Of a DNA stretch of 22,058 bases, positions 1,509 to 19,758 are shown piece by piece. The stretch is from positions 1-22,058 of the IMG/VR virus record IMGVR_UViG_3300046028_000302, one strand, 5' to 3'. The position numbers and the translations under genes are program-made. How positions within the stretch are numbered: the first letter of the stretch is position 1; the number at the start of each line of letters is the position of its first letter. The notes under the pieces were generated by a model. That model saw only the letters and a program-made list of their open reading frames with translations, was not told the DNA's origin and did not search any database. This DNA is from a virus.

Positions 1509-1582
1509 GTACAAAGTCTTTTATAGTGGTAATAATAATATCAGTAATACTATGGTATATAATTATAAAGTCCTTAATTTAA
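1505..1582 (+). CDS. Putative single-pass membrane microprotein, 25 aa
   Basis: The ATG at 1505 overlaps the previous stop (ATGA) and opens a 25-codon frame ending at TAA 1580-1582. The peptide begins MSTKS and then has a continuous hydrophobic run of Ile, Val, Leu and Trp from about residue 6 to 21, followed by K22 and a short end. That is a typical one-helix membrane peptide. The frame overlaps the first 31 nt of the glycosyltransferase gene. The coupled start and the clean hydrophobic profile favour a real gene. However, the AT-rich base composition easily yields Ile-rich peptides, so this could be chance. A membrane anchor or regulator near the glycosyltransferases is possible but unproven. 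Confidence 0.4.
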   Translation: MSTKSFIVVIIISVILWYIIIKSLI

Positions 1583-4791: not shown

Positions 4792-4931
4792 TTTATCTAG
4801 CAAAAGAATTAGGCGAAAATAGAAAAGATATAATAAAAATTAATATCTTTACATTTAATAATTGGGTAAACTTCTTTACATATAAAATAAAGAAAGATAA
4901 CCCTCCGACAAAAACGATAGTTAGACGATGA
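4174..4931 (+). CDS. Tail assembly chaperone, predicted -1 frameshift product (gpGT-like), about 252 aa
   Basis: The -1 frame is open from 4653 to the TGA at 4929-4931 and has no ATG near its beginning, so it is most simply reached by a -1 slip on the T run at 4680-4688. The fusion keeps residues 1-171 and adds 81 residues: a charged linker, then an amphipathic helical end with VWSWHEVIIYLAKELGENRK and a later NNWVNFFTY stretch. This looks like the T part of other tail chaperones (aromatic residue, then LA..., then a hydrophobic helix). The TGA overlaps the ATG of the next gene in an ATGA junction, the same coupling seen elsewhere here. That is strong evidence that this frame is translated. 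The region 4792-4927 would otherwise be a rare non-coding gap. Confidence 0.75.
4680..4692 (+). other. Probable -1 ribosomal frameshift site (T9-G slippery run)
   Basis: Nine T in a row (4680-4688) followed by GCTC give, in the 0 frame, GGT TTT TTT TTG CTC. The heptamers T TTT TTT and T TTT TTG both allow tandem re-pairing one base back, after which reading continues TTT GCT CAG. A short 6-bp complementarity, TTGCTC (4687-4692) with GAGCAA (4710-4715), could form a small downstream stem, but it partly overlaps the slip site and is weak. A homopolymer this long could instead be a sequence error or a true indel. Confidence 0.65.
4844..4851 (+). promoter_or_regulatory. Promoter -7-like octamer TATCTTTA inside the chaperone -1 frame
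   Basis: TATCTTTA is identical to the octamer at 18493 and shares the preceding TTAA. It lies inside the predicted -1 coding frame, 77 nt before the ATG at 4928, and no start codon follows at the 4-nt spacing seen elsewhere. It might drive the downstream tail genes with a normal leader, but in AT-rich DNA it may be chance. Confidence 0.2.
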
Positions 4932-5497
4932 CAGAAGCTGAAATATTAAGTAGTTTAAATTTAGGTAGTTCTAAAGCTATACTTAATAATACGGCTGGCA
5001 ATCCTTTATCTACATTACTACAAGCACTTACCCAAGAAGTTATTGACGATTTGCGTAAAGCTATGCAAGACAGAAATGTAGATGCTAGTAGAAACTTATC
5101 ACAAAGTATAAAACCAACAAAGACATTATACAACGGTAAAGCGGTTAGTGTTGGCATAACAATGGATTTCTATTGGAAGTATGTAAACTACGGAGTAAAC
5201 GGAACTGAAGTTTCACACGGTGCGCCAAATTGGGGTAAAGCCCCTAGCAGTGGGGTTAGTTTTCATGACTCTATTAAGAATTGGATATCTCAAAAGGGTA
5301 TAGGTTTACCAGAACAATTTAAAAGTTACGATTCTTTCGCTTGGGCTGTTCAGAATAGCGTTGTTAAGAAAGGACAAAAACCGAAGCCATTCTTTGAAGA
5401 TGTTATTAACGATCAACTTATTAACGTACTTAAGAAACCTATTCAGAAACTACTAGGTAAATCTATAAAATTAAATATTATTTCACCATGGCAGTAA
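4928..5497 (+). CDS. HK97 gp10-like tail completion / head-tail joining protein
   Basis: This 189-aa protein has the layout of the HK97 gp10-like family, which helps join or complete the tail. An N-terminal helix is followed by a beta region with FYWKYVNYGVNG (about 79-90; the family has a D/WY-x-VN/E-x-G pattern). Next come a Gly/Pro-rich loop, an SIKNWISQKG helix, a small-residue helix with AWAVQNSV, and a terminal KPKPFFEDVI that matches the 'PFF--V' ending. The start at 4928 overlaps the TGA of the frameshifted chaperone frame (ATGA). The end overlaps the next gene by 10 nt. The call rests on motif order, not on catalytic residues, as the family has none. Confidence 0.65.
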   Translation: MTEAEILSSLNLGSSKAILNNTAGNPLSTLLQALTQEVIDDLRKAMQDRNVDASRNLSQSIKPTKTLYNGKAVSVGITMDFYWKYVNYGVNGTEVSHGAPNWGKAPSSGVSFHDSIKNWISQKGIGLPEQFKSYDSFAWAVQNSVVKKGQKPKPFFEDVINDQLINVLKKPIQKLLGKSIKLNIISPWQ

Positions 5498-6645
5498 CAA
5501 TAGCAAGCTCACCACAAAAATACACCCCCTCAGATAATCCTATTATTTGGACTTTCTACAGCGGTGCAATTGGTAACCCTAACTTTAGTTATATTATTGA
5601 AGTTTATGTTAATGCCGTGTTGATTTCATCTCATCAAGTATTCCCTGAGATTGGCGGTGGGTATTCTCATTTTGATATTAGCGAAATAATTAGACCTATC
5701 ACACCCGTAGCCATTGTAGGTAGTTCCACTATTGTAACCGATGCAAGTAATTATAGAAGCGCATACGTTAAGATTAGAGAATTCTACGGAACTACTCCAT
5801 CGTTTCATGCTGATGCTACAAGTGCCACGATATATCCTTTTAAAGCGTGTTTAAACCCTATCGATTTTGATACATTTGACTATACAGATTTTAAATGTAC
5901 ATCAAATACTAAAAGATTTTTAACAGATTCACCAAACACTTTGATGTTGCCTGAGGGTAAAGATTATTACTTAAACATAATAACAGATGAACAAACAGAT
6001 ATAGGTATTATTTTAGATTTTTACGATTCAAGTAATGCAATAATAACATCTATAGATTATAATGCTGCCACAAGTTTTAAGATAACACAGTTCAATCTTA
6101 ATTCTGATAACTATTTATCTACTTTAACACAGCCCGTTTTAGATACTGTTTCTTATGTTAATTATTACATAGCCGATTTAGGAAGTAGTCCAATTAGTGA
6201 AACTAAAAGAATGTATTTCGATAGGGGTTGCGACAATGGAGCTGAGCTAATTTGGTTAAATAAATATGGCGCGTTTGATGTTTACAACTACGGTCATAAT
6301 TTAGTAGCTTCGTCTGAAATAACTGCTAAAACATTTGAAAAGCAATATGGCGGTTGGGTAGATGTTAATTATGTTTTAGACTCATCTAATGCTGGTGTAC
6401 ATTCTTACTTTAAGACTGCTAAAGATAAGGTTAAATTAATTAGTAAATACATTGATTCAGATACACAGAATTGGTTAGTAAGGTCGGCTTATATTTCGTC
6501 GCTTGTTTACATGTTTGATGCTACTAGACAAATGGTTAATATTGCATCAACTTCTTATGAAGAAAGCAATGACCGATTTATAGAAGAAACAACAGAGATA
6601 GTCGACCTTACCCTTCCTAATATTCGTAAATCAATACTATTATAA
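5488..6645 (+). CDS. Tail structural protein, probably distal tail (hypothetical)
   Basis: This 385-aa protein is rich in Thr, Ser, Tyr, Asn and Asp and alternates short beta-strand-like segments, typical of virion proteins. It has no signal peptide, no membrane segment and no catalytic motif. The opening (MAVTIASSPQKYTPSDNPI) and the pairing with the following 789-aa gene resemble tail genes of Bacteroidetes phages. A W-rich middle (AELIWLNKYGAFDVYNYGHN, about 251-270) may be a folded core. It lies between the gp10-like protein and the hub-like protein, joined by a 10-nt overlap upstream and TAATG downstream, so a baseplate or distal-tail role is the best guess. I cannot name a family with certainty. 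Confidence 0.5.
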   Translation: MAVTIASSPQKYTPSDNPIIWTFYSGAIGNPNFSYIIEVYVNAVLISSHQVFPEIGGGYSHFDISEIIRPITPVAIVGSSTIVTDASNYRSAYVKIREFYGTTPSFHADATSATIYPFKACLNPIDFDTFDYTDFKCTSNTKRFLTDSPNTLMLPEGKDYYLNIITDEQTDIGIILDFYDSSNAIITSIDYNAATSFKITQFNLNSDNYLSTLTQPVLDTVSYVNYYIADLGSSPISETKRMYFDRGCDNGAELIWLNKYGAFDVYNYGHNLVASSEITAKTFEKQYGGWVDVNYVLDSSNAGVHSYFKTAKDKVKLISKYIDSDTQNWLVRSAYISSLVYMFDATRQMVNIASTSYEESNDRFIEETTEIVDLTLPNIRKSILL

Positions 6646-9014
6646 TGGATAGATTATTAGTTAATAATACGGAACTAGATTTAAACGATAGAGTACCATT
6701 CCCTTTAAACTTTTCCATAGCAGATAGTAAAGAACCAAATAAGCGTAAAAGGAATTACTCGAAAGAAGTTGTTATTCCCGGCACGGCTTCAAACATGGCT
6801 TTTTTTAGTTCCGCTTATCAATTAGCTTTATCTACGGTTGACAATACTACTTTAATCGGTTTTAACTTTGACCCAACGGTAAGAGTAAAAGCAAAGTATT
6901 ATAAAGAGGGTTTACTTGTTTTTAACGGGCTATTAAGATTAAATCAAGTTACTATATCAAATGGTAACTATTCGTTTAAGTGTACGTTATTTTCAAACTT
7001 CATTGATTTATTCATGAAGCTAGGAGATAAAAAGATAAGCGAGTTAGGTTGGTCTGAATATAACCATTTATTAAATAGAACCAATGTAATCAATTCATTT
7101 GATACTTCGGTAAAAGTGGAAGGTGTAGATACGGTTAATTTCACGGCAGGCTTGCCAGATGGCTTTGGTTACCATTACGGATTAGTTGAATACGGTTATA
7201 CAGCTTATTCGACAAGGTCAACAACTGATATTATACCTTTGACTTATGCGCGGGAAATATTCACTAAATGTTTAGAGCTTGCTAACTTAACGCATGAGTC
7301 TGATTACTTAGATTCTGCAATATACAAAAAGAAGTTAATAGGTTTTGGAGGCGGTCAAAAAATATCTTTACCATCTACAGAGGTTGCAAATAGACGCGTT
7401 AAATTTACAAGCACTTTAAGCAATGTTAAAGAATATGTTTATATAGCTGTAGACCCTGACAATGCGAATAGATATAGATACTTAGCTAATAATTGGATTG
7501 ATATGTTGGCAACGTGGGACGGTATCACATCTACTTTAGTACATGATAATTTTGACCAATACTATATAGACCATACAAATACACCAGCAGGATATTACAA
7601 TTACATAACTATAAAGAAACAAGGTTTATATAATCTAAATATATCACACCCTATAGAAGTAGCTTTTGATTTTGGAGCTATGAGTAACGCTGGCGGTATA
7701 TTTAATGTTAAGTGGGAAGTTTTAAAAAATGGCGCGGTTATAGATTCTCAATTAGTTGAAGAGGGTGACATTACTACAACTTATGCAAATACATTTACCT
7801 ATAATAGTAATATTCAATTAAATGTTAGTGATGTTATTAATATGCGGTTTCAAGTTTATGTAGATTATAAGCTAGACGCTACAATGTTTTCGGGAGTAGA
7901 ACCATTAGAGATAAGTATAACTTCTAGTTCTAACTTCACTACGGATTTAACGAGCGTACAAGCTACATTACAAGATGGTGACGTAGTAGATATTAGTAGA
8001 TTCATGCCAGATATGAAAGCTAGTACATTCTTTGAAGCTGAAATGTTAATGGCTAACCTTTATTTTAGTGACCCTGACATCTACGGAGTGATTAAAATAG
8101 AGCCTTTAAACGATTTTTATAAACCTACTACAGAATTTTGGGACATTACAGATATAGTTGACCATTCAAAAGATATTAATATAATGCCATCTAGTAAAAT
8201 TGAGGGTAAAATATACAAATATCAATGGATGAAAGACCAAGATTATGATAATAAAAAGTATTTCGGTTACTTCGGTATAGATTACGGGAATCATTGGTAC
8301 ACAGTTCCATCTACGTTTCAAGTAGGAGAGCGAGTTTATCAATTACCATACGCTCAAACAGTGCCAACAGATGCTATATTTCCATTCGTAGCGCCTAGAA
8401 TTATAGACGTAGACATACAGACGGGAATAGTAAAGCCATTTAAAGGTAAACCTAGAACTTATTTATGGAATGGTTTAAAAAGTGGGTCATGGAGGTTAAC
8501 AGACACCAACACGGCTACCTATTCAGATTTAACAACTTACCCTAGTGTACATCATTTTGATAATTGGGAAAGTCCAAACTTCGATTTGAATTGGGGTATG
8601 CCTATACTATTTGATTATCCAGCTACGTCCGTAACAAGTGACAATCTTTTTACTAGATATCATGAAAGGTTTGTTAAGGAAATGACTGGACGAGATAGTA
8701 AGATAGTAGAACTTTATGCAAAGATAAGCGTTAACGATATTAATAGCTTAGATTTTAGTAAATCTGTAATGTGGAACGGAGTACTTTATAGACTTAATCA
8801 AATAACGGATTTTGATAGTAACGTATCAGAGTCTACAAAAATAGAATTAATAAAAATAATACAAGCAAACAACCCCGTAACGGGTACTATAACATGGACG
8901 GAATTACCAACCGTAGATATTGAGTTTTCTCCTTCAGATACGGGTACAGATGTGGGTGTTGGTTTTGGGGGTGTTGAGGACATATTAACTTACAGTGATA
9001 TATTTTTTGGATAA
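6645..9014 (+). CDS. Large tail hub/baseplate-like structural protein, 789 aa
   Basis: The N-terminal 130 residues carry a pattern that I recall from large Bacteroidetes phage tail proteins: basic residues then VVIPGTASNMAFF (42-54), FDPTVRVKAKYYKEG (75-89) and VFNGLLRLNQV (92-102). This resembles a hub-type beta barrel that binds the tail tube end. The middle is a long beta-rich region with many Tyr/Asn/Asp. The C-terminal third has another beta domain (VLYRLNQITDFDSN, about residues 706-719) and an acidic Gly/Val-rich end. No lytic, peptidase or sugar-binding motif is evident. Its place before the tape measure and its size are consistent with a tail tip or receptor-contact protein. TAATG junctions at both ends indicate coupled translation. 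Confidence 0.5.
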   Translation: MDRLLVNNTELDLNDRVPFPLNFSIADSKEPNKRKRNYSKEVVIPGTASNMAFFSSAYQLALSTVDNTTLIGFNFDPTVRVKAKYYKEGLLVFNGLLRLNQVTISNGNYSFKCTLFSNFIDLFMKLGDKKISELGWSEYNHLLNRTNVINSFDTSVKVEGVDTVNFTAGLPDGFGYHYGLVEYGYTAYSTRSTTDIIPLTYAREIFTKCLELANLTHESDYLDSAIYKKKLIGFGGGQKISLPSTEVANRRVKFTSTLSNVKEYVYIAVDPDNANRYRYLANNWIDMLATWDGITSTLVHDNFDQYYIDHTNTPAGYYNYITIKKQGLYNLNISHPIEVAFDFGAMSNAGGIFNVKWEVLKNGAVIDSQLVEEGDITTTYANTFTYNSNIQLNVSDVINMRFQVYVDYKLDATMFSGVEPLEISITSSSNFTTDLTSVQATLQDGDVVDISRFMPDMKASTFFEAEMLMANLYFSDPDIYGVIKIEPLNDFYKPTTEFWDITDIVDHSKDINIMPSSKIEGKIYKYQWMKDQDYDNKKYFGYFGIDYGNHWYTVPSTFQVGERVYQLPYAQTVPTDAIFPFVAPRIIDVDIQTGIVKPFKGKPRTYLWNGLKSGSWRLTDTNTATYSDLTTYPSVHHFDNWESPNFDLNWGMPILFDYPATSVTSDNLFTRYHERFVKEMTGRDSKIVELYAKISVNDINSLDFSKSVMWNGVLYRLNQITDFDSNVSESTKIELIKIIQANNPVTGTITWTELPTVDIEFSPSDTGTDVGVGFGGVEDILTYSDIFFG

Positions 9015-9508
9015 TGGACATTAAAAGAAGACAAGTAATTAAAAGAAGTACAGGTGTTGCAACAGTTCCTGTAAGTGGTGACCATAGAAATGGCGACTGG
9101 ATTGTAACCGATATCTACGAAGGTGAGTTGATGCAAGACATTACCACGGGTTTATTATACACTCGTTTAGGCAATGATATACTAGACGCTAACGGAAAGC
9201 CTTTAGTGAAAAATTACCGTGCTTTAATAAGTCAAGTAAGTACAACCGCGCCAAGTGTAATAGAGTTTGAAAACACTATAGGTGCAATTGTATGGACTAG
9301 AATTTCAGCGGGTAAATATATGGGTACACTAGTAGGAGCTTTTACTATAAACAAAGTAGAGTGTTATTGTGGAACACCAATGGTTAACGATAGGGTTTAT
9401 AACTTTTATAGAAAGTCAGCAGATGCCGTTGAATTATACACTTATGAAGCTGGAGTTTTTACAGATGCAATTATAGATAATTTATCAATTAAAATAACTA
9501 TTAACTAA
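9014..9508 (+). CDS. Hypothetical tail protein, 164 aa
   Basis: The N-terminus is basic (MDIKRRQVIKRS). It is followed by a segment DITTGLLYTRLGNDI (about 42-56) that resembles the short 'given/label' repeats found in tail fibres and neck fibres. The second half (IGAIVWTRISAGKYMGTLVG, 89-108) looks like a beta-sandwich strand pair seen in small Bacteroidetes phage virion proteins. Two Cys (117, 119) occur near one another. There is no enzyme motif. It lies between the hub-like protein and the tape measure with TAATG junctions at both sides, so it is probably a small tail or fibre component. The exact role is unknown. Confidence 0.5.
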   Translation: MDIKRRQVIKRSTGVATVPVSGDHRNGDWIVTDIYEGELMQDITTGLLYTRLGNDILDANGKPLVKNYRALISQVSTTAPSVIEFENTIGAIVWTRISAGKYMGTLVGAFTINKVECYCGTPMVNDRVYNFYRKSADAVELYTYEAGVFTDAIIDNLSIKITIN

Positions 9509-11859
9509 TGGCTGAAGAAATAGTATTTAAAACCACGGTCGACACTGGTAATAGTGTCTCTGCAATTAACGACGTAGACAAAGCGTTAAAGGAAGTTAAT
9601 TCAACGGTAAAAAGTAATAGTGTTGATTCTAATAAAGCCTTTGATGATCTTAATGCGAAAGTTGATAGTGGCGAGTTATCAGTAAGGCAATTAAGTAAAG
9701 CTGTAAAGGAATACGCTACTATTGCCGTGCAAGCGGGTGAAGATAGCCCTATAGGTCAGGAAGCTATAAGAAGGGCTGGTGAACTTAAAGATAGATTAGG
9801 CGACCTTCAAACACAGATAAACAATAACGCCAACGACGGGCGTAGTATGCAAACAGCTTTACAACTCGGTCAAGGTATTGCGGCAGGTTATGCAGTTGCT
9901 CAAGGTGCTTTAGCTTTGTTTGGTGATGAGAATAAAGACCTACAAAAAACACTTGTCAAACTGCAAGCAATACAAGCTGTACTAGCAGGACTTGAAGAAA
10001 TACGTTCTATCTTAGAAAAGGAAAGTTTAGTAAGAACTGCAGCTCTTAAAGTTTGGAATGTAGTAAAGGTAGCTAGTGAGTACGCATATGCGACTGCAAT
10101 AGGAACAAGTACGGGAGCTTTAAAATTAGCTAGGCTTGCAATGCTTGCTTTACCTATAGTTGCTATTATTGCTGGTATTATAGCTATAGGTTCAGCTATG
10201 TCAGCGTTTGGGGACGAAACAGAATCAACTGAGGAAAAACAAAAGAGGTTAGATGATGCTTTAGAAGCTACAAATAAAACTTTAGAATCTCAAAAATTAG
10301 CCTATGAAAATGCAGCAACGGCATCAAAGTGGGCAAATGATAAACAATTAATAGACGCCTTAAATGCAGGGGCAAGTGAGAAGGAAATAAATGATATAAA
10401 ATTAAAAGGTTCAAAAAACAGATTAGCCATTTTAAAAGCTGAATACGAAAAAAACAAAGAAAATGCTTTGGTAATGTATTCCGACTTAAAAATTACTCAA
10501 GCTCAAGTAGATGCTATAATGAAGTCGAAAAGTGACTCTTATAAAAAATATTCTACTGAATTAATGAATATGAATATGGCAGAAGCTCAATCCAGAAACG
10601 AATCAATAAGGGCAACTCGGAAATCACAAAATGAAGATAATAAAAAACAAGCTGAAGCTAGTATAGAACATAATAAAAAAGTTAAAGAAGCTGCAATAAA
10701 ACATAAACAGGATTTAGCGAAGGTCGAAGAGGATAATAGAGTAGCCATGCATAATAGTGAGGTTGGATTCTTTGAAGCCACTATTTTAAGCAACCAAGAA
10801 TTAAGTAAAAAAGCTTTTAACGCTCAAAAAGGATTATTACTAGAAAATAAAGAGTTCGCGCTAGCTGACTTAAAAGCAACGGAAGGACAAAAAGAAGCTA
10901 TTAAAGCAAAGTATAATGCTGACTTAATAAAATTAGAGAAAGAACATAATGATGCGTTAAAAGAAATTGTTTATAAAGATAAAAAAGCAATTTTAGAGGT
11001 TGCATTAAATGATGACACAAAAAATGTAGAAGCTAAAAAAGACTTACTATTACTAGAAAGAGATTTTTTACTATCAAATACTAAATTAACTGAAGCGGAA
11101 ATTTTCGCTATAAAACAAAATTATATAAAAGAGGTTCAGGATATGGATTCCGAAGCTTATACAGCTTACCAAGAGGCTACAAACACGGCGCAACAAAATG
11201 AAATTAATGGAGTAAATGAAAAATACGACGCATTAATTAAAACCGCTGAACAATACGGATTTGACACTATAGAACTTGAAAAGAAAAGACAAGAAGAGTT
11301 AAATAAGATAGAAGAAGCTGCAACGGTTAAAAAAATAGATAACGTTAAAAAGTATGCAGACGCTACAATGGCTTCTTTAAATGCTTTAAACGATTTACAA
11401 AACCAATTAGACGCTAATAAATTAAAAAATCAAAACTTAACAGAAGCGCAAGTATTAGAGATTAAAAAGAAAGCGTTTAATAGAGACAAGGCTTTAAAGA
11501 TTGCAAGTGTTTCTATAAATACAGCAGAAGCTATAAGTAAATCCGTTGCTGCAAGTCCATTAACATTTGGAGCGCCTTTCTCTGTATTCTCAGCGGTCAC
11601 GGGAATAGCACAGATTGCAGCAATTGCAAGCACTAAGTTTGACGGAGGTGGTAGTAATATTACAGCCCCAACTACACCAGCAAATGAAAATCAAAGTTCT
11701 GGCGGTGGCGGTTTTGGTGTAGGTTCTACTAGTGAAGTGTCAAGTGTTGGACTTACAGATAATGCTACAGGAATAAAAGTAACCGTTGTAGACTCTGAAA
11801 TCAAAGCCGTTATGGATGCTTCAGCTGCTGCTAGTGTATTGTCTACTTTCGGGGGTTAG
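9508..11859 (+). CDS. Tail tape-measure protein, 783 aa
   Basis: This protein sets tail length and is ejected with DNA. It shows the usual architecture: a helical N-terminus, a hydrophobic segment (about 208-232, LARLAMLALPIVAIIAGI and onward), a very long Lys/Glu/Ala-rich coiled-coil region (about 240-650), then a C-terminal membrane-like helix series with SINTAEAISKSVAASP (about 668-683) and GIAQIAAIAS, ending in a Gly/Ser-rich linker and a small beta domain. At roughly 1.5 angstrom per residue it would correspond to a tail a little over 100 nm long, consistent with a siphovirus. It is the last gene of the tail block and ends with TAG. It lies four genes downstream of its chaperone. Confidence 0.85.
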   Translation: MAEEIVFKTTVDTGNSVSAINDVDKALKEVNSTVKSNSVDSNKAFDDLNAKVDSGELSVRQLSKAVKEYATIAVQAGEDSPIGQEAIRRAGELKDRLGDLQTQINNNANDGRSMQTALQLGQGIAAGYAVAQGALALFGDENKDLQKTLVKLQAIQAVLAGLEEIRSILEKESLVRTAALKVWNVVKVASEYAYATAIGTSTGALKLARLAMLALPIVAIIAGIIAIGSAMSAFGDETESTEEKQKRLDDALEATNKTLESQKLAYENAATASKWANDKQLIDALNAGASEKEINDIKLKGSKNRLAILKAEYEKNKENALVMYSDLKITQAQVDAIMKSKSDSYKKYSTELMNMNMAEAQSRNESIRATRKSQNEDNKKQAEASIEHNKKVKEAAIKHKQDLAKVEEDNRVAMHNSEVGFFEATILSNQELSKKAFNAQKGLLLENKEFALADLKATEGQKEAIKAKYNADLIKLEKEHNDALKEIVYKDKKAILEVALNDDTKNVEAKKDLLLLERDFLLSNTKLTEAEIFAIKQNYIKEVQDMDSEAYTAYQEATNTAQQNEINGVNEKYDALIKTAEQYGFDTIELEKKRQEELNKIEEAATVKKIDNVKKYADATMASLNALNDLQNQLDANKLKNQNLTEAQVLEIKKKAFNRDKALKIASVSINTAEAISKSVAASPLTFGAPFSVFSAVTGIAQIAAIASTKFDGGGSNITAPTTPANENQSSGGGGFGVGSTSEVSSVGLTDNATGIKVTVVDSEIKAVMDASAAASVLSTFGG

Positions 11860-11889
11860 TGTAAACACTATTTAGAATTAATCTAAATA
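11858..11889 (+). other. Hairpin region after the tape-measure gene
   Basis: After the TAG at 11857-11859, TATTTAGA (11869-11876) and TCTAAATA (11882-11889) form a perfect 8-bp stem around the loop ATTAA. The core AGA-ATTAA-TCT is identical to that of the terminator at 14553-14591. No T tract follows, so it is a weak terminator at best. It could act as an attenuator, an RNA end or a processing signal. A small palindrome, AGTGTAAACACT-like, precedes it at 11858-11869. Confidence 0.35.
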
Positions 11890-11916
11890 AAATGTAAATA
11901 ATTCAATTTTAATTAA

Positions 11917-11924
11917 TAACTTTA
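11917..11924 (+). promoter_or_regulatory. Promoter -7-like octamer TAACTTTA before protease/scaffold gene
   Basis: TAACTTTA lies exactly 4 nt before the ATG at 11929 in a 69-nt, highly AT-rich intergenic gap, one of the longest gaps in the window. It matches TAnnTTTG except for the last base. No -33 TTG is visible. The ATG spacing equals that at 14605 and 18505, which supports a start of transcription at or near the ATG and a leaderless mRNA for the capsid unit. Confidence 0.5.
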
Positions 11925-11928
11925 TATT

Positions 11929-13005
11929 ATGTTACCAATTTATAAGCTTACAATTAATGACAATGATGAGACGGGCGTAGACTATAACGCGTTTGTTGAC
12001 ACGCCTGCACACTTAAAAGCCTTTATTGCTTTTGATAAATCAATGCCTTATAAGTTTAAAGAAGAACAAAGAATTGTAACGGGTGTTATGATGAGCGCAA
12101 ATACTTTGATTTACAGAAATAGTCCAGATATTGGAGAACACCAAGTTTTCTTCGACGTTGCTACAATTAAACAAATAGTACTTAAGTTTTTTAAGAACAG
12201 TTTTGGGAACAATGTAAATAAAATGCACAATGAAAACGATAAAGTAAACGGTGCTATAATGCTAGAAAGTTTTTTTATTGATTCAAAGCGAGGTGTTAAC
12301 GCCCCTATCGAATTTAGTAAACAAAATCTACAAGATGGGACTTGGATAGCTTCCTACAAAGTAGAGAATGACCAACTATGGGACGAAGTAAAAAGTGGAA
12401 AGTTTCAAGGTTTTAGTGTCGAAGGAATTTTTGATAGAATACAAGTAAATATAAAAACAAATAATAAACAAAAGATGAACAAAAAAGAAGTAAGTGGTAA
12501 GTCACTCTTTAATTTGATTTTTGGTAAAAGCAAGTTTGAAGAAGTGCCAGTTACAGAAGAAACAGTTTCATCATTTGCGGAGGTTACATCACTAGACGGC
12601 ACGGTGCTGACTTATGAGGGTGAACTAGCAATTGATGCGCCTATCTTCGTAATTGATGAGAATGGCGACAAGTTGCCAGCCCCAGCATTAGATTATCAAT
12701 GTGAAATTGATGGTAAAGTATTAATTATTTCAGTTAATGAAAGCGGTTTAATTTCTGCTATTGAAGACGTTATCGTTGAAGAAGCTGAGATGAGCGCTGA
12801 GATTAAAGACTCAATCCTTGCAGAAGTTGCTGAAGTAATGAAAAGTACTTTAGAAGCTACGTTTGCTAAAATTGAAGAATTGACTTCAGAACTTAAAAAA
12901 CTTAAAGAAGAGAAAGTGAGCAAGTTTCAAAATGAAGCTAAAACGGGAGTTAAAGAAGTTGCTAAAATGACAGCAAACGAAATCCTAAAAAATATTAAAA
13001 ACTAA
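11929..13005 (+). CDS. Prohead protease (XkdF-like) fused to scaffold domain
   Basis: This 358-aa protein combines a capsid maturation protease with a scaffold. The N-terminal part (about 1-175) resembles XkdF-type serine proteases: GVMMSANTLIYRN (52-64), EHQVFFD (70-76), a His in VNKMHNE (H100), E113 in MLESFFID and a candidate nucleophile in FQGFSVEG (S163). A short linker (about 171-182) leads to a charged C-terminal half with a Glu/Lys-rich coiled coil (about 285-340), typical of scaffolding. The gene lies directly upstream of the major capsid gene, as expected. It follows a -7-like octamer at 4 nt. The His/Ser pair is read from the sequence; the catalytic assignment is inferred from the family. 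Confidence 0.75.
   Translation: MLPIYKLTINDNDETGVDYNAFVDTPAHLKAFIAFDKSMPYKFKEEQRIVTGVMMSANTLIYRNSPDIGEHQVFFDVATIKQIVLKFFKNSFGNNVNKMHNENDKVNGAIMLESFFIDSKRGVNAPIEFSKQNLQDGTWIASYKVENDQLWDEVKSGKFQGFSVEGIFDRIQVNIKTNNKQKMNKKEVSGKSLFNLIFGKSKFEEVPVTEETVSSFAEVTSLDGTVLTYEGELAIDAPIFVIDENGDKLPAPALDYQCEIDGKVLIISVNESGLISAIEDVIVEEAEMSAEIKDSILAEVAEVMKSTLEATFAKIEELTSELKKLKEEKVSKFQNEAKTGVKEVAKMTANEILKNIKN
12475..13005 (+). CDS. Probable nested scaffold protein from internal start, 176 aa
   Basis: Residue M183 of the protease-scaffold gene marks the boundary between the protease and the scaffold part. The bases before it (AATAAACAAAAG) are A-rich and G-ended, much like the leader of the capsid gene (AAATAAATAAAG), and both coding starts read M-N-K. 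A separate scaffold of 176 aa made from this in-frame start would parallel the C/Nu3 arrangement of lambda, giving more scaffold than protease. It contains the coiled-coil region and no protease residues. The start could also be a plain internal Met in A-rich DNA. Confidence 0.45.
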   Translation: MNKKEVSGKSLFNLIFGKSKFEEVPVTEETVSSFAEVTSLDGTVLTYEGELAIDAPIFVIDENGDKLPAPALDYQCEIDGKVLIISVNESGLISAIEDVIVEEAEMSAEIKDSILAEVAEVMKSTLEATFAKIEELTSELKKLKEEKVSKFQNEAKTGVKEVAKMTANEILKNIKN

Positions 13006-13023
13006 ATTTAAAAATAAATAAAG
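13006..13023 (+). promoter_or_regulatory. A-rich translation leader of the capsid gene
   Basis: The 18 bases between the scaffold stop and the capsid ATG are almost only A and T and end in AAATAAATAAAG directly before ATG. No Shine-Dalgarno is present. In Bacteroidetes, A-rich positions just upstream of the start favour efficient initiation without Shine-Dalgarno pairing, so this fits a strongly translated gene. Confidence 0.5.
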
Positions 13024-14010
13024 ATGAATAAAATTGGAAAATTGGGTAAAGCCCTTAAAGAAAAATTTGATTACGATGTAGTTGGATTACCAGCATGGAC
13101 TGACAATACAATGCCTGTAGTAATTACAGACTTGATTAACAACTCTGATTTTTTAAGTTCTTTGACTTTAGAGTCAGATGTTAAAGGAACGAAAGAGATT
13201 GCTTTGTTAAATTCAGATGTAACGCTTCAAGCTAAAGTTGCTTGTACTCCTTCTCCTGATGGTTCTGTTATCTTTACAAAAGCTGACCTTACAACTGTAC
13301 CTTTGTACATGGGTATCGAGTTTTGTAATGAAGACCTTAATGGTAAAATGACTCAAATCTTAAACAAGTTAGGTTTGAAAATGCAAGACGGTCAACTTCC
13401 TGCAGACCTTGAAACTGTTTTAGGTGCTTACCTTGGTAAATTGTTACAACGTAAAGCTCAGTTAGTAGTTGTTTCTGGTGACACTTCTTCAATCGACCCT
13501 GAACTAGTTTTGATGAATGGTTTACGTCACATCTTAGTTAACGATGCAGATGTATTGACTTACGATGCAGCAGATGCTACAATGACATCTACAAACGCTT
13601 ATACTCAATTTATCGGAGTACATGATAAAATACCTACTGAATTGTTTGATAACGAAATGACTATCAAATTATATACAGGACGTACTGAAGCTAGAAAATG
13701 TATCACAGCTTGGAATACTGCTAATCAATATGATCACGTAGTTGTTACTAATACTAAATCTAGTGTTTCTTTTATCCTTCCTGGAACAAACGTTGAAGTT
13801 GTTACTTTGCCAGAGTTAGATGGTAAATCTGAAATTTACGCTATTCCTTTAGATTTAACTTTCTTAGGTGTTGATTCTTTAGATGATATGAATTTTGAAG
13901 TTAAGTACGATGCTTATAACGATAAATTGAAAGCTGAAGCTTCATTTAGATTAGGTACTCAAATTGTTTGGGGTCAATACTTTGTTAGACTTCATTTGTT
14001 AAACTCTTAA
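13024..14010 (+). CDS. Major capsid protein
   Basis: This 328-aa protein is called the shell protein from its position after protease/scaffold, its length and its composition (mixed alpha/beta, no enzyme motif, balanced charge). Features include a basic N-terminus (MNKIGKLGKALKEKFDY), a long helix-like stretch with QLPADLETVLGAYLGKLLQR (about 123-142, a candidate spine helix), and a beta-rich C-terminal part ending FRLGTQIVWGQYFVRLHLLN. Codon use differs by eye from the neighbours: Leu CTT and TTG and C/T-ended codons are frequent where tail genes favour TTA and CTA, the sort of bias expected for the most expressed gene. I see no separate delta domain; it may lie in the scaffold. A fold of HK97 type is inferred. 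Confidence 0.8.
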   Translation: MNKIGKLGKALKEKFDYDVVGLPAWTDNTMPVVITDLINNSDFLSSLTLESDVKGTKEIALLNSDVTLQAKVACTPSPDGSVIFTKADLTTVPLYMGIEFCNEDLNGKMTQILNKLGLKMQDGQLPADLETVLGAYLGKLLQRKAQLVVVSGDTSSIDPELVLMNGLRHILVNDADVLTYDAADATMTSTNAYTQFIGVHDKIPTELFDNEMTIKLYTGRTEARKCITAWNTANQYDHVVVTNTKSSVSFILPGTNVEVVTLPELDGKSEIYAIPLDLTFLGVDSLDDMNFEVKYDAYNDKLKAEASFRLGTQIVWGQYFVRLHLLNS

Positions 14011-14022
14011 TATTACTGAATT

Positions 14023-14532
14023 ATGTGTGAAATCCTAGAAGGAAAGAACGCAGTATGTGATAGCGTAGGCGGTGTAAAAGCCATCTACGCTTGGAATACT
14101 GCAGACGCTACAATAACAAAGGCAAATGGTACTATTTCATCTTTATCTTTAGCAGCTGGTAAATATATCCACAAGTTTTTTGTTGAAATGGAGACGTCTA
14201 AATTTACAGCCACGAAAATAGGTGATAGAAAAAATCAATCTGTAGCATACGAGCAAACAGGAACTATGATGTTGAGCGGTAATACTGCAACTGATATTGT
14301 AAACCTTGAAGCTTTAGAAATCGCTAGAACTACTTTCGCTGTAGAATTGAACGATGGTACTTACGAAGTATTCTACGAAACTAACGGGGCGAGTGTTTCA
14401 GGTGTTAGAGATTCTGGACAAGCTTATGAAGATGCAAACGGTAACGTTTTAACTTTATCTGGTAAAGAAAAGAATAGACCTAATAAAATTGCTGCAGGAT
14501 TAATTACAGCATTGTTAGACCCTGTTTCTTAA
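14023..14532 (+). CDS. Major tail tube protein (probable)
   Basis: This 169-aa beta-rich protein starts MCEILEGKNAVCDSVGGVK, close to the opening of tail tube proteins that I recall from Bacteroidetes phages (a Cys near residue 2, a second Cys near 12, then GGVK). The centre has a YEQTGTMMLSGN strand pair (about 75-86) and an LEALEIARTTFAVEL helix-strand (about 93-107). The end has a DANGNVLTLSGKEKNRPNKI stretch (about 137-156), matching the 'LTFTGEEK' close of the family. Like the capsid gene, it uses more C/T-ended codons. It follows the capsid by 12 nt and is followed by a strong terminator, so the pair is co-transcribed. A decoration protein is the main alternative. Confidence 0.6.
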   Translation: MCEILEGKNAVCDSVGGVKAIYAWNTADATITKANGTISSLSLAAGKYIHKFFVEMETSKFTATKIGDRKNQSVAYEQTGTMMLSGNTATDIVNLEALEIARTTFAVELNDGTYEVFYETNGASVSGVRDSGQAYEDANGNVLTLSGKEKNRPNKIAAGLITALLDPVS

Positions 14533-14552: not shown

Positions 14553-14591
14553 AAAACCTTATTGAGAATTAATCTTAATAAGGTTTTTTTT
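14553..14591 (+). terminator. Strong intrinsic terminator after capsid/tail-tube unit
   Basis: A 15-bp stem pairs 14553-14567 with 14573-14587. It has one G-T wobble (14564/14576) and the loop ATTAA. The stem is followed by a run of T that starts inside its right arm (T14584-14591, eight T). It sits 21 nt after the tail-tube stop and directly ahead of a -7-like octamer. This is the clearest transcription end in the window. Confidence 0.85.
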
Positions 14592-14592
14592 G

Positions 14593-14600
14593 TATCTTTG
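14593..14600 (+). promoter_or_regulatory. Promoter -7-like octamer TATCTTTG right after the terminator
   Basis: TATCTTTG matches TAnnTTTG fully and ends 4 nt before the ATG at 14605. It starts 2 nt after the T tract of the terminator, so one unit ends and the next would begin within 10 nt. No -33 TTG at about 20 nt upstream is visible, as that position falls in the terminator loop. Leaderless transcription of the portal unit is the prediction. Confidence 0.55.
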
Positions 14601-14604
14601 AACT

Positions 14605-14994
14605 ATGACAATTTTAATAACGAAATCTAGTTTAAACATTATAGCTTTGACATTGTCAGAACTTGAGGACCAAACACTAGATATTAATTGGCTTTTTAGG
14701 TTTACTAAAGACGAAGGTAGACAAGAAATATTTTGCTATTTAAATGATTTAAACGAGTCGACAGCACGTTATAATTTGTTTAATTTATTGGAGGGTGTAG
14801 ATGCAACGTTTACAAAACTAGGAGATTATACCTATAGAGTTTATCAAATGCCTAACGGTGGTTCTTTAGATTATTCCTTAGGTATTCAATGCGAGATAGG
14901 TAAAGTAAGAGTAATAGATAATATTATAGTAGTGCCAGCAAGCTTTGAGCCTACATTAACATCAAATATTTATGGAGGAGAAACAAACAGCTAG
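14605..14994 (+). CDS. Hypothetical virion-associated protein, 129 aa
   Basis: This small beta-rich protein has the order SLNIIALTLSELED (about 8-21), WLFRFTKDEGRQEIFCYLND (about 29-48), YNLFNL (56-61) and DYTYRVYQMP (73-82). I associate this layout with a group of small proteins encoded next to portal genes in Bacteroidetes phages, possibly a single Ig-like beta sandwich. There is no enzyme motif. It is the first gene after the terminator and begins 4 nt after the -7-like octamer. Its last 23 nt overlap the portal start. A minor head or neck part is plausible but not proven. Confidence 0.5.
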   Translation: MTILITKSSLNIIALTLSELEDQTLDINWLFRFTKDEGRQEIFCYLNDLNESTARYNLFNLLEGVDATFTKLGDYTYRVYQMPNGGSLDYSLGIQCEIGKVRVIDNIIVVPASFEPTLTSNIYGGETNS

Positions 14995-16714
14995 AACGTT
15001 TAGTACATTTAGAGAGGTTGCAATCATTGACCCCGTTGAAACAGTAGCCAAAGAAGGGTGGGTAAAATGGGGAATCGACAACCTTTACCCTCAATTTTTA
15101 TGGTCTTTATATGTTAACAGTCCTATTCATGGAGGTATAATCAACTCTAAAAATACTTTTATTTCGGGTGCTGGTTTAAACTATGAAGGTACTGAGAATT
15201 GGGATGAGATTAATAAAAACGGACGTTCTAAATATACACTAGACGAACTTGTCGAAATGTACTCACTAGACCAGGAAGTTATTAACGGTTATTATATTAA
15301 ATGCGTTTATGATTCATTAAATCAAAAGTGGCAATTAGAACACTTAGATTTTGAGTTGATGCGACCTAATGAAAACGGAACTATATACTATTATTCTGAA
15401 AATTGGGCAACGTCTAGACAAAATGATAAGACAAAATTCAAAGAATATACTAGCTTTTTTAACCGTACAAGTGAAACAAAAGAATGCGTTTTATTTGTAA
15501 AGGCTAAATCTAGACAGTTTATACTAGAAACTAAAAAGCTAACTTCAGGATATTACCCTATTCCATTGTACAGCGGTGGTATTGATTCAATATTGACTGA
15601 TATAGAGATTAATTTCTTTAGATTATCAGAGGTTGTTAACGGTTATAAGGGTGGGACATTGATATCTTTAAACAATGGTATACCAGAAAGCGAAGAACAA
15701 GCTGAAAAGATAGTATATGACCTTAAATTAAACGCTACAGATAAGCGTAAGCAAGGCGGTGTAAGCGTTACTTTCTCAGATGGTAAAGATAGAGAGCCTA
15801 GCATTGTGCAATTAAATGGAAATGACCTAGATAAGCGCTACGAAAGTACAGAGGTTGGACTTTCTAAAAAGATATTTATTGCACATTCTGTAATTAACCC
15901 TAAAATGTTCGGTTATATTCAAGATTCTTCTTTATTTTCTAGTGACTTAGAAAATGACTTTAAACTATTCAATCGTACATACGTAAAGAAAAGACAAAAG
16001 AATATATCAGACTCTTTGAACTATGTACTTTCAGAACTTAACGGAATGACGGGAGAAATTAGTTTTAACGAATACGAACTATTTGATAAAGTTATTGAGC
16101 CAATTGTACCTGTAGCTTTAAAGTTATCAGCAGAAGACAATGAAACGCAAATACTAGATTTATTTGTAAGTTGTGGACGTTCTAAAAACGATGTTAAAAT
16201 TATAAAATCTAGTGAATTTAAAAACCAAACAGAAGAGGAAATTATCGAAGGATTTTTTAAAGACAAATTTGCTGTTAACGATAATCAAAATACAATCTTA
16301 TCCATGCTATCAAATGGTGAGAGTTATGATGCAATTGTAAAAGTTTTAGATATGAAACCTATTGAAGTTTCAAAGATAATTGTAGGATTGCAAAATAACG
16401 GTTATTTAGATGGTGGTAACGTTACCGACAAAGGACTTCAAGAGATTGTAAACCGTGAACAGATAAGTGTTGTTTATTCTTATGAGAAAAGACCCAACGC
16501 TCCCGACTTAGTTAAAGGGGGTAGTTCTAGACCATTTTGCAAAACGCTTATTGAAATGGATAAAGTTTACACAAGGAACGAAATAGATAATATCAGTTCA
16601 GCAGTTAAGCGTGACGTATGGAGTTATAGAGGTGGTTGGTATCATAACCCTAACACAGATATAAATACTCCTTCATGTAGACATTTTTGGAAACAAAACG
16701 TAATCTTTAAATAA
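14972..16714 (+). CDS. Portal protein with winged-helix and Cys/His C-terminal domains
   Basis: Residues 1 to about 380 look like a portal, the dodecameric ring at the packaging vertex: KWGIDNLYPQFLWSLYVNSP (32-51), SPIHGGIINSKNTFISG (50-66), and a stem/crown region with INFFRLSEVVNGYKGGTL (213-230). Beyond this lie a helical segment, a probable winged helix (about 438-492: NTILSMLSNGESYD, then VSKIIVGLQNNGYLDGGNVT) and a last module (516-580) with SSRPFCKTLIE (C523), YTRNEI, WSYRGGWYHNP and PSCRHFW (C569, H571). The last resembles the C-terminal module of Mu F/SPP1 gp7-type head proteins. Its first 23 nt overlap the 129-aa gene, and the connector gene starts 2 nt after its stop. At 580 aa it is longer than a bare portal, so it may do the work of two proteins. 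Confidence 0.75.
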   Translation: MEEKQTARTFSTFREVAIIDPVETVAKEGWVKWGIDNLYPQFLWSLYVNSPIHGGIINSKNTFISGAGLNYEGTENWDEINKNGRSKYTLDELVEMYSLDQEVINGYYIKCVYDSLNQKWQLEHLDFELMRPNENGTIYYYSENWATSRQNDKTKFKEYTSFFNRTSETKECVLFVKAKSRQFILETKKLTSGYYPIPLYSGGIDSILTDIEINFFRLSEVVNGYKGGTLISLNNGIPESEEQAEKIVYDLKLNATDKRKQGGVSVTFSDGKDREPSIVQLNGNDLDKRYESTEVGLSKKIFIAHSVINPKMFGYIQDSSLFSSDLENDFKLFNRTYVKKRQKNISDSLNYVLSELNGMTGEISFNEYELFDKVIEPIVPVALKLSAEDNETQILDLFVSCGRSKNDVKIIKSSEFKNQTEEEIIEGFFKDKFAVNDNQNTILSMLSNGESYDAIVKVLDMKPIEVSKIIVGLQNNGYLDGGNVTDKGLQEIVNREQISVVYSYEKRPNAPDLVKGGSSRPFCKTLIEMDKVYTRNEIDNISSAVKRDVWSYRGGWYHNPNTDINTPSCRHFWKQNVIFK

Positions 16715-16715
16715 A

Positions 16716-17258
16716 ATGAGTACAGCATTATTAATAAACGCATATAATCTTAAACAACTTTCTTTGATTCATGGAAATGTTGAAGATAGTATATTAACCC
16801 CCACTATTAAGATAGTACAAGACACAATGATAGAACCTATTATAGGGACTTCTTTGTACACTAGAATACTAGAAGGTATTGACCTAGATAATCTTAACGC
16901 TGATGAGGTTATTTTAATGGATAAGTATATTATTCCCGTAGTTGCTATGGGTTGTAATTTAGAATCCGTTGTAATGACTACATACCAAATTAGAAACAAA
17001 GCTACAGGAATAACAAACGACGAGTTTCTAAGGGGTGCAAGTGAAAGCGAAATAAATAGATTGCAGGATTCATTTAGAAGTAAATTTGAACACTATAGAC
17101 AAAAGTTGATACAATATTTAAAATACAATTCTGTTCTATATCCTGAATACTACCAATACTTTTCTAATCCTGATTCTTTTTATAGTTGTTTAACGGATGG
17201 CGGTGAAGGAATTAAACCAGACTTAGGTAAAACTAGAAGTAATATCTATTTTAAATGA
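16716..17258 (+). CDS. Head-tail connector/adaptor protein (gp6-like), 180 aa
   Basis: This 180-aa helical protein is probably the adaptor ring below the portal. The opening ALLINAYNLKQLSLIHGN, the PTIKIVQDTMIEPIIGTSLY stretch (about 29-48) and the helix DEVILMDKYIIPVVAMG (about 63-79) resemble connector proteins of Bacteroidetes phages, where a long helix bundle packs against the portal. There is no enzyme motif. It lies directly after the portal and overlaps the next gene by 4 nt (ATGA, 17255-17258). The end is Gly/Lys-rich. Confidence 0.6.
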   Translation: MSTALLINAYNLKQLSLIHGNVEDSILTPTIKIVQDTMIEPIIGTSLYTRILEGIDLDNLNADEVILMDKYIIPVVAMGCNLESVVMTTYQIRNKATGITNDEFLRGASESEINRLQDSFRSKFEHYRQKLIQYLKYNSVLYPEYYQYFSNPDSFYSCLTDGGEGIKPDLGKTRSNIYFK

Positions 17259-17884
17259 AGAAAACTTTAAATAATCTTAATACAGAACTACAAGCAATTG
17301 CAGACGCACACCTTCAGGTTAATACTTACTATTGGGGTGACTTTCTAAATGCTATAAACCAAGACAAGGCGGTTACATACCCTTTAATGTGCTGTTTTGT
17401 TACGGGTAATAGTTTAGATAAAGTTACTATTCCTGTTACTATTAATATAATTGTAGCTGATAAGTTTTTTAAAAATGGTCGACAAGGCAATTTAAACGAT
17501 ACTGAAAGCGATACTTTACAAGTTGTACGTGATGTTTATGAAGTTATTAGTAAAAGCCCTAGATGGCAAAACATTGGTAAGATAACGGGCGCAACGGCAA
17601 GTAAATTTCTAGAAAAAGGTGCAGATGAAAGTGCTGGATGGATTTTAGCAATATCATTTACAATATACGACAATCAAAGTATTTGTAATTTACCTATGAT
17701 GGGTTACGACTTTGAAACGTCTGCCAATATACAAATGTGTGAGGACGTTATTATAATAAATTCGGACGGTTCATTTACCCATACGGCTGCAAGTGGTGAC
17801 GTTTATACATTACCAGATACTACATACAATGTTTATGTAAATAGTAACTTAAATAGTACGTTCACTATTCCAACATTAAGCTAA
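17255..17884 (+). CDS. Tail terminator-like protein with extra C-terminal beta domain, 209 aa
   Basis: The N-terminal 140 residues fit a tail terminator: a start helix with LQAIADAHLQVNTYYWGDF (12-30), a central beta sheet with TIPVTINIIVADKF (58-71) and DTESDTLQVVRDVYEVI (82-98). This is the family that caps the tail tube and joins it to the head. After about residue 150 comes an added beta-rich piece with CEDVIIINSDGSF (162-174) and GDVYTLPDTTYNVYV (181-195), which resembles short modules at the ends of fibre proteins. The order connector, then terminator, then fibre is normal. It starts on an ATGA overlap and ends on TAATG. Confidence 0.55.
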   Translation: MKKTLNNLNTELQAIADAHLQVNTYYWGDFLNAINQDKAVTYPLMCCFVTGNSLDKVTIPVTINIIVADKFFKNGRQGNLNDTESDTLQVVRDVYEVISKSPRWQNIGKITGATASKFLEKGADESAGWILAISFTIYDNQSICNLPMMGYDFETSANIQMCEDVIIINSDGSFTHTAASGDVYTLPDTTYNVYVNSNLNSTFTIPTLS

Positions 17885-18474
17885 TGAAAAACTTTATAAC
17901 CGACTTAGCATTTACAGAACAACTTACAACGCTTGCAAGTGATGACACTATACTAGTAAGACAAACTAGCCAAAGTAAAAAGAATACAGAGATAAGTGTA
18001 AGCAATTTCTTTGAGTCGAATATAACTCCACATATAGCTTTATTAGACACAACTATTCAAACTATTGCAGTTGCAAACACTCCACAAGTAATTACATTCA
18101 ATACTTTAGATTTTGCAGATAAAATAACACAAACTTCTAGTTCTAGATTTACAGTTTTAGAAGGTGGGAATTTTATAGCTAATATTTCAGCACAAACAGA
18201 ACTTTCTAGCGGTGCTAATAAATTACTAGATATTTGGATAAAAGTAAACGGAACTAATTTAGCTAACTCGAATAGTAAAATTAGAATTGCAAATGGTAAC
18301 GACCAGAAAAGGCTAACTATTTCAATACCATTTACTTTAAACGCTAATGATTATGTTGAACTTTGGATGAGTGGCAACGATGTACATTTACGATTATTAG
18401 CAACGGGAGTAGAAACAACACCTGATAGACCCGCAACACCAAGTATTTTTTTAACAATAGATAAATTACCTTAA
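17884..18474 (+). CDS. Small tail fibre / head-fibre protein with jelly-roll domain, 196 aa
   Basis: The N-terminus (about 1-45) has the layout FTEQLTTLASDDTILVRQ, common in fibre proteins that dock to the virion. Residues about 55-196 alternate strands in a pattern like a C1q/TNF jelly roll: TIQTIAVANTPQVITF, GGNFIANISAQTEL, IWIKVNGTNLANSNSK, RLTISIPFTLNANDYVELWM and a final TPSIFLTIDKL. Such trimeric heads bind sugars or receptors at virion tips. It follows the terminator-like gene with a TAATG junction and precedes the octamer at 18493. Function is inferred from pattern and place. Confidence 0.5.
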   Translation: MKNFITDLAFTEQLTTLASDDTILVRQTSQSKKNTEISVSNFFESNITPHIALLDTTIQTIAVANTPQVITFNTLDFADKITQTSSSRFTVLEGGNFIANISAQTELSSGANKLLDIWIKVNGTNLANSNSKIRIANGNDQKRLTISIPFTLNANDYVELWMSGNDVHLRLLATGVETTPDRPATPSIFLTIDKLP

Positions 18475-18492
18475 AAATTAAATAATTATTAA

Positions 18493-18500
18493 TATCTTTA
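18493..18500 (+). promoter_or_regulatory. Promoter -7-like octamer TATCTTTA before the tail fibre
   Basis: TATCTTTA ends exactly 4 nt before the ATG at 18505, in a 30-nt AT-only stretch, and is preceded by TTAA as at 11917 and 4844. It differs from TAnnTTTG in the last base. No -33 TTG is seen. It would start a leaderless message for the fibre and lysis genes. Confidence 0.45.
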
Positions 18501-18504
18501 TACT

Positions 18505-19758
18505 ATGGCGAATAACATTAATATAACATTTAGCAAGGCGGATATGGGTCTTGAAAATGTGGATAACACTTCTGATTTAAACAAACCAATATCTACAGCT
18601 ACACAAACGGCATTAGATAATAAGGTTGACAAAGAAGCTGGAAGCCGTTTAATAACTAGTGCTGAAGCTACATTGTTGGGTAATACTAGTGGAACGAATA
18701 CAGGCGACCAAGACCTTCAAAGCGTTGTAACTGCTGGTAATACTACAGATACAGATATTCAATTTGGGGACGGTGTTGGTGTGTTACTAAATAATACTTC
18801 AAGACTTCGAGAGGGTACAATTGACTCAGGCGCTGGCGGTGGTGTAGCTCAAATTTGCGCTGTAGGTTACGAGTTGAAATGGGAAGCTGGTAGTCAATAT
18901 GTAATGGATGGTAACGGTCTTTTAATACGAGAAGTTAACCATAAATTTACAAGTATTCCAGATGCAAATAATGATAACACACAAGGATTTTATGCTGGGT
19001 CACGTTGGATATTAGATAATGGAGATTTATATATTTGCACAGATGCGACAACCGCAACTGCTGTTTGGGAATTACAAACTATTGACACCGTGCCAACTGA
19101 TGGAAGTGTTAAAGCTGTAGAATCTAACGGAGTGTTTGACGCTTTATCAGATAAAGTTGATAAGGTTGCAGGGGAAAGACTTATAACAAGTGCAGAAAGT
19201 ACATTACTAGGCAATACTTCAGGAACTAATACGGGAGACCAAGACTTGAGCGGTTTAGCTCCATTAGCGTCCCCAACATTTACGGGAACGGTTGTACTAC
19301 CAAGTGATACATCAATAGGCACTGTTTCATCTACTGAATTAGGGTACTTGGACGGGGTTGCTAGTAGCGTTCAAAATCAATTAAACGCGAAAGTTAATCT
19401 TAACACTTTAATAACTCCCGCTAGTGGAAACAAAGTATCTGTGGATGCCAAAGGTTTGGTTTTAACTATCACAGACGAATACGCAACTTCAACAACTGGG
19501 AGCGTTATATCATTTTCAAGTCCTAAAGTTTGGAATACATTTAGCTCACCATCAACAGCAAATTTAACAGACGACTTAACGGGTGCGAAAATTGGAGCTA
19601 TTCAAAAGATATACTCAAATAAAGCGGTTGCGCCAACCGTTCCAGCTGGATGGGTTTTAATAGGTACAGGAACTTACACAACATCTACTTTAAATATTAT
19701 ATTTGCTGAGTGGGTGAGTGGAACTCGCATCGAATATTGGGTCACTAAACCAGCATAA
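18505..19758 (+). CDS. Tail fibre protein with internal duplication, 417 aa
   Basis: This is a modular fibre. The N-terminus carries GLENVDNTSDLNKPIS (15-30), a widespread phage fibre motif. A 32-residue module (40-71) is repeated at 217-248, with 29 of 32 residues the same (KVDK-AG-RLITSAE-TLLG, then NTSGTNTGDQDL). Between the copies lie a Gly-rich collar and WILDNGDLYICTDATTATAV (168-187), a familiar fibre module, then a VPTDGSVKAVESNGVFDAL link. After the second copy come LAPLASPTFTGTV (251-263), STELGYLDGV (276-285) and a beta tip rich in Ser/Thr. No enzyme motif is seen. It starts 4 nt after the octamer. The repeat implies growth by duplication. Confidence 0.8.
   Translation: MANNINITFSKADMGLENVDNTSDLNKPISTATQTALDNKVDKEAGSRLITSAEATLLGNTSGTNTGDQDLQSVVTAGNTTDTDIQFGDGVGVLLNNTSRLREGTIDSGAGGGVAQICAVGYELKWEAGSQYVMDGNGLLIREVNHKFTSIPDANNDNTQGFYAGSRWILDNGDLYICTDATTATAVWELQTIDTVPTDGSVKAVESNGVFDALSDKVDKVAGERLITSAESTLLGNTSGTNTGDQDLSGLAPLASPTFTGTVVLPSDTSIGTVSSTELGYLDGVASSVQNQLNAKVNLNTLITPASGNKVSVDAKGLVLTITDEYATSTTGSVISFSSPKVWNTFSSPSTANLTDDLTGAKIGAIQKIYSNKAVAPTVPAGWVLIGTGTYTTSTLNIIFAEWVSGTRIEYWVTKPA
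18622..18717 (+). repeat. Fibre module repeat, copy 1
   Basis: These 96 bases encode fibre residues 40-71. They match copy 2 (19153-19248) at 29 of 32 residues but carry many synonymous changes, so the duplication is old or has been kept by protein-level selection. Confidence 0.8.
19153..19248 (+). repeat. Fibre module repeat, copy 2
   Basis: These 96 bases encode fibre residues 217-248, the second copy of the module at 18622-18717. The three amino-acid differences fall at module positions 5, 8 and 16; the half NTSGTNTGDQDL is unchanged. Confidence 0.8.

Follow-up and report, generated by a model that had tools for sequence, protein, structure and literature searches.

In the promoters of Flavobacterium johnsoniae and Flavobacterium psychrophilum, a TAHHTTTG box lies at -12 to -5, that is 4–5 nt from the transcription start (PMC6847099, PMC9723704). 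The -33 element is barely detectable in F. johnsoniae and the G at -5 is nearly invariant (PMC6847099), and leaderless messages make up 5.5% of the mapped mRNAs of F. psychrophilum (PMC9723704). The Thermus phage phiYS40 has leaderless middle and late mRNAs, which have been linked to changes in IF2/IF3 (PMC3594737). In another Thermus phage, P23-45, gp39 and an extended -10 element are known for the middle and late promoters (PMC7403470). A search of the accessible literature for leaderless late phage genes in Bacteroidetes found no paper.

Here, four octamers were analyzed in the late region of a tailed phage, a virus record of 22,058 bases that is called the window below and whose host is probably a Flavobacterium-like bacterium. 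We consider it likely that these octamers are the -7 elements of late-operon promoters giving leaderless mRNAs, and that their most probable reader is the host primary sigma factor (sigma-A/ABfr), acting without a -33 element or a phage sigma factor.

Gene Layout of the Window and Its Relatives

All listed late genes of the window are on the + strand, most of them abut or overlap, and they fall into four units that we regard as late from the function of their genes (Table 1). The apparent 136-nt gap before the gene at 4928 is accounted for by a probable frameshift extension of the preceding gene, which fills it. The ORF 4174–4791 crosses a T run (about 4679–4688, GGTTTTTTTTTGC), where a -1 shift opens an extension of ~80 codons ending at an ATGA overlap with the gene at 4928, and this looks like a tail-assembly-chaperone frameshift.

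Some fifty relatives of the window are present in IMG/VR. The closest annotated isolate, Nonlabens phage P12024L/S, infects a flavobacterium; a search of isolate phages for nucleotide or capsid relatives of the window gave none, nor did a genome scan for proviruses with its capsid protein. The nearest apparently complete relative, G002 (34.3 kb), has a 172-nt end overlap at 95%, is mostly 92–94% identical to the window where well aligned and carries the same TAHHTTTR promoters.

Table 1. Features of the window and related loci in other phages (the last two rows refer to relatives).
Feature	Position	Strand	Remarks
Terminase large subunit	66–1268	+	
-7 box TATATTTG	1286–1293	+	5 nt to ATG 1299, head of unit 1
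Unit 1	1299–11859		Small protein, glycosyltransferase/methyltransferase cassette, tail genes, tape measure
Glycosyltransferase, methyltransferase, second glycosyltransferase	1552–4201	+	Inserted between terminase and tail genes, late operon
Tape measure	9508–11859	+	Preceded by tail genes
Inverted repeat ATTTAG-aattaat-CTAAAT	11868–11893	none	Conserved; not followed by T on the + strand
-7 box TAACTTTA	11917–11924	+	4 nt to ATG 11929, head of unit 2
Unit 2	11929–14532		Protease, likely capsid and likely decoration protein
XkdF-like head protease	11929–13005	+	
Likely major capsid protein	13024–14010	+	Named from position and weak profile matches
Likely decoration protein	14023–14532	+	Named from position and weak profile matches
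Intrinsic terminator of unit 2	14553–14591	+	15-bp stem and T run, -15.9 kcal/mol, z -6.2
-7 box TATCTTTG	14593–14600	+	4 nt to ATG 14605, head of unit 3
Unit 3	14605–18474		129-aa protein, portal and subsequent genes
129-aa protein	from ATG 14605	+	
Portal	14972–16714	+	
-7 box TATCTTTA	18493–18500	+	4 nt to ATG 18505, head of unit 4
Unit 4	18505 to window end		Fibre-like protein, M15 peptidase, lysozyme
Fibre-like protein	18505–19758	+	Followed by M15 peptidase and lysozyme
TTTAGAATTAATMTAAA-type element in relatives	G001:18966, G003:23378, G013:3542, G014:10630, G015:156 and 718		
Exonuclease-like gene, TAYCTTTA-N4-ATG head, in relatives	G001:24524, G002:24497, G013:8335, G014:16304, G015:6454, G017:3983		Sigma-bearing and sigma-less phages

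Boxes at the Heads of the Four Late Units

The original prediction placed four octamers 5, 4, 4 and 4 nt before ATGs, and all of them were found as described. They occupy all four true intergenic gaps of at least 30 nt (30, 69, 72, and 30 nt). All four boxes have TA..TTT, with a last base that is G in two and A in two. No other of the window's 26 starts carries a box of the strict form TAHHTTTR, and the looser TAnnTTTR adds a single start, at 2457 (TAGATTTA), which lies within a coding overlap. A generic sigma-70 promoter scan, which models the wrong promoter type, showed no excess and was set aside.

The spacing had been called constant, which holds for the 4 nt at three heads and not for the 5 nt at the first. 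A box 4 nt before the ATG puts +1 on the A, and 5 nt puts it one base earlier. Transcription beginning at the ATG, as originally proposed, is thus supported as a prediction by the box-to-start mapping in Flavobacterium, with starts at the ATG or one base before it, and leaderless late mRNAs are predicted for the four heads. At the third head, the T run of the terminator of unit 2 ends at 14591, just before the TATCTTTG box, with 13 nt between the T run and the ATG; since the terminator leaves no more than this, a start far upstream of 14605 is unlikely unless the terminator is read through. In several relatives, sigma-bearing ones among them, a terminator is packed in the same way before the 129-aa gene or its counterpart; the hairpins there are different ones, rebuilt with the terminator architecture retained. 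In the same phage group, host-type boxes with a leader are about 20–40 nt from the ATG. The same gene caller was applied to 400 kb of the Flavobacterium hiemivividum genome, where the box lay at 3–6 nt in 3 of the 72 heads that carried one (~4%), in line with the published 5.5% of leaderless messages.

A palindromic element around TTTAGAATTAATMTAAA lies before the protease promoter (11868–11893) and is repeated in the non-coding early DNA of relatives, some of them sigma-bearing phages (Table 1). It is possibly an operator or a replication site.

The -33 Element and Phage Sigma Factors

No TTG lies 17–20 nt upstream of any of the four boxes, and the -33 TTG is therefore absent in all of them, as had been noted. 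In the phage set, TTG at this distance occurred in 0 of 14 dereplicated late or leaderless boxes versus 10 of 17 leadered boxes (Fisher p = 5e-4), the latter being a small set hand-picked for boxes ending in G. The gap between late and leadered phage boxes is real and may point to the need for a phage helper. In the F. hiemivividum genome, TTG was found in 9 of 44 leadered boxes and was absent from 35; against these the late phage boxes give a one-sided p of about 0.07, worked out by hand. Most Flavobacterium leadered boxes lack TTG, and the absence does not disqualify a promoter of the Bacteroidetes primary sigma factor.

Some relatives encode sigma factors of their own. The relatives G001 (27.5 kb) and G013–G017 have a 177-aa ECF-like sigma gene just before the terminase genes, whose product matches TIGR02937 across most of the protein (2.5e-7, below the curated cut-off of the model). 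Its structure model is poor (mean pLDDT 50.8), and the best PDB matches of this model are ECF sigma factors, but with E of about 0.02, which adds little. A second sigma-like version, 27% identical, is encoded by gene 35 of P12024L and passes the Pfam region-2 cut-off. In G013–G017 (L089–L098; records of up to 31 kb), the late heads carry GGTTACAA-N14-AGTTTATA at 3 or 4 nt from the ATG. The upstream half varies slightly, and there are up to three such heads per record where it is long enough. This promoter and the ECF-like sigma of the same phages form a candidate sigma/promoter pair. Its strict N3 form, when searched for in 2.9 million viral contigs, was present in 22 stretches, many with two sites. 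In P12024L, six heads have AAAC-N16/17-CGTTAATA (one site CGTTATTA) 4 nt before the ATG, and this promoter is kept in phages with relatives of the P12024L sigma.

In P12024L (L075; 2750–3031 and 5123–5412), L102, and L103, late CGTTAATA promoters lie within 46–52 nt of host-type TATATTTG promoters, which diverge from them and serve small reverse-strand genes.

Across the group, host-type boxes are found where a sigma gene is lacking and either bipartite promoter where one is encoded; a scan of the window's late heads for both bipartite promoters found no such site. The exception is G001 (L055/L056), which is 98.8% identical to the window over 10.7 kb and in which a different, sigma-type terminase module is joined to the structural module of the window; it may be a natural recombinant or an assembly chimera. 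The window itself is a fragment, and its close relatives differ in this respect, with a sigma gene in G001 and no recognizable one in G002, which was scanned with TIGR02937 and PF04542. A phage sigma as the reader of the window promoters, a candidate prompted by G001, was dropped on these grounds. Pfam and PHROG scans of ten G002 proteins from the early and terminase regions revealed no clear transcription factor, most having no informative family; a helper protein unrecognized by scans of these ten is possible.

An unlikely alternative is that a phage sigma or a sigma-remodelling protein reads the late promoters, the factor displacing or replacing sigma region 4 in the manner of P23-45 gp39. 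The TTG missing from all 14 late boxes and present in 10 of the 17 leadered ones would fit such a factor, as would the final A in half of the late boxes and the two groups of relatives whose ECF-like sigma factors come with late promoters of their own. However, G002 keeps the promoters of the window with no match to either sigma model, the corresponding heads of sigma-bearing relatives have a different sequence, and the 9 of 44 in F. hiemivividum make a missing TTG nothing unusual. The earlier suggestion that, with the -33 element missing, a modified polymerase or a phage factor may be used is hence not needed for this phage, because the -33 is weak in Flavobacterium and the sigma-less G002 has the same promoters.

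Conservation and Placement of the Boxes

The conservation of the boxes was analyzed in relatives with at least 58% protein identity, with upstream DNA clustered at 85% identity; genes were called with a simple custom caller, the dereplication thresholds are arbitrary and the counts small. For three head genes, a box at 4–5 nt was found in 11 of 11 upstream clusters (protease 3/3, 129-aa gene 3/3, and fibre gene 5/5), as against 0 of 59 clusters of four internal genes encoding the capsid, decoration, portal, and 180-aa proteins (Fisher p = 5e-13). The boxes of the protease homologues are TAACTTTA, TAAATTTG, and TAATTTTA, and those of the 129-aa-gene homologues are TATCTTTG, TAACTTTG, TAATTTTA, and TATATTTG, all at 4 nt, while the fibre-gene homologues have theirs at 4–5 nt. 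The homologue of the unit 1 head has a box identical to that of the window in G002 and G004, and a distant relative (L042, 39%) also has a box before its 129-aa homologue. The variation is confined to the two n positions and to A or G at the end, as the consensus predicts. This pattern is that of a promoter box that keeps its place as the DNA around it changes.

The -7 reading was also tried on relatives below ~50% identity, where it mostly fails and other sequences precede the protease gene. In L031–L034, L037, L038, and L047, further motifs adjacent to the ATG (TTTTAACTYTWATAAWTAGA; CGTTAATATAATAGGT) lie upstream of the protease homologue, which suggests more types of late promoter. Another conserved head of leaderless geometry, TAYCTTTA-N4-ATG, belongs to an exonuclease-like gene of 372–373 aa upstream of the terminase region (Table 1).

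Restriction to operon heads also bears on the possibility that the octamer is a translation-initiation signal, Kozak-like and AT-rich, instead of a promoter. Its fixed distance to the ATG and the lack of Shine-Dalgarno sequences in Bacteroidetes (PMC9723704, PMC6847099) would suit such a signal, but it is missing from all 59 clusters of internal genes such as the capsid gene, and the heads of relatives carry two unrelated bipartite motifs whose upstream half is 14–17 nt away. We therefore hold a translation signal to be very improbable.

The placement of the promoter boxes was compared with shuffled DNA. When the 60 nt before each head were dinucleotide-shuffled, 0, 1, 2, 3, and 4 heads matched in 18858, 1116, 25, 1, and 0 of 20,000 runs. 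Across the window, the octamer followed by 4 or 5 nt and an ATG was found 12 times, compared with 1.8 ± 1.4 in shuffled controls. The comparison put forward with the original prediction, the octamer at random positions, would have been less telling: the word alone is moderately over-represented on the + strand (69 vs. 47.7 ± 6.0), and whole-octamer frequency was dropped as a weak test, the word itself being common. With the octamer itself only moderately enriched, it is its position and not the word that carries the signal. That AT-rich intergenic DNA yields the octamer often enough by chance can be dismissed almost entirely, since, for all its two-thirds A+T and the 69 occurrences on the + strand, none of the 20,000 shuffles matched at four heads and the conservation test, with boxes kept at heads only across diverged relatives, refutes it.

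Proposed Mechanism and Significance

In the proposed course of infection, the host polymerase would first use leadered promoters that have a -7 element and often a -33 element as well. In the phage group of the window, host sigma-A would then read the late operons by way of the -7 box, placed right next to the start codon, and AT-rich upstream DNA; in two other groups a phage ECF sigma would read late promoters that likewise adjoin the start codon. The late messages would in each case begin at AUG. The two boxes that end in A, the spacing of 5 at the first head and the -33 difference of 0/14 versus 10/17 count against the reading as host-type leaderless promoters.

The leaderless placement seems to be a selected property in its own right, because the sigma-encoding relatives differ in promoter sequence yet keep 3–4 nt to the ATG. 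A wider proposal, which we offer tentatively and would give slightly less than an even chance, is that the late mRNAs of this phage group are leaderless by design, that host sigma-A and at least two phage ECF-sigma promoter types have been exchanged, and that leadered host-type promoters stand before early genes. A parallel to the initiation-factor changes of phiYS40 would be a guess.

How Bacteroidetes ribosomes pick their starts is unsettled. Leaderless messages are rare in Bacteroidetes transcriptomes, and the late structural operons of these phages are predicted to lack leaders irrespective of the sigma that reads them, so that the group makes it testable whether late infection favors leaderless translation. 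If the wider proposal is true, the early/late switch would be translational as well as transcriptional, independent of that of phiYS40 yet parallel to it. For a phylum in which genetic tools are scarce, the phages would also provide candidate pairs of phage ECF sigma and promoter, as well as compact modules that combine promoter and start.

Comparison With Known Systems

The promoters of the window resemble those of Bacteroidetes sigma-ABfr in the -7 box, the 4–5 nt to the start, the weak or absent -33 element and the AT-rich upstream DNA (PMC6847099, PMC9723704). They differ in that all four late heads are predicted to be leaderless, compared with 5.5% of the mapped mRNAs in F. psychrophilum, and in that two of the four boxes end in A, at the position (-5) where F. 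johnsoniae has an almost invariant G. The P12024L (JQ823123) is a distant isolate relative with a related protease and portal, and its late heads are leaderless by geometry, like those of the window; it differs in its late promoter, AAAC-N16/17-CGTTAATA-N4-ATG, and in having its own sigma-like protein (gene 35). In both P23-45 and the window, late promoters dispense with an upstream element that host-type promoters have, whereas no factor like gp39 and no extended -10 element was identified in the window. The nearest precedent is phiYS40, which has a class of late transcripts without a leader, as predicted for the window; however, its host belongs to a different phylum, and what is an experimental finding in phiYS40 is in the window a prediction from DNA.
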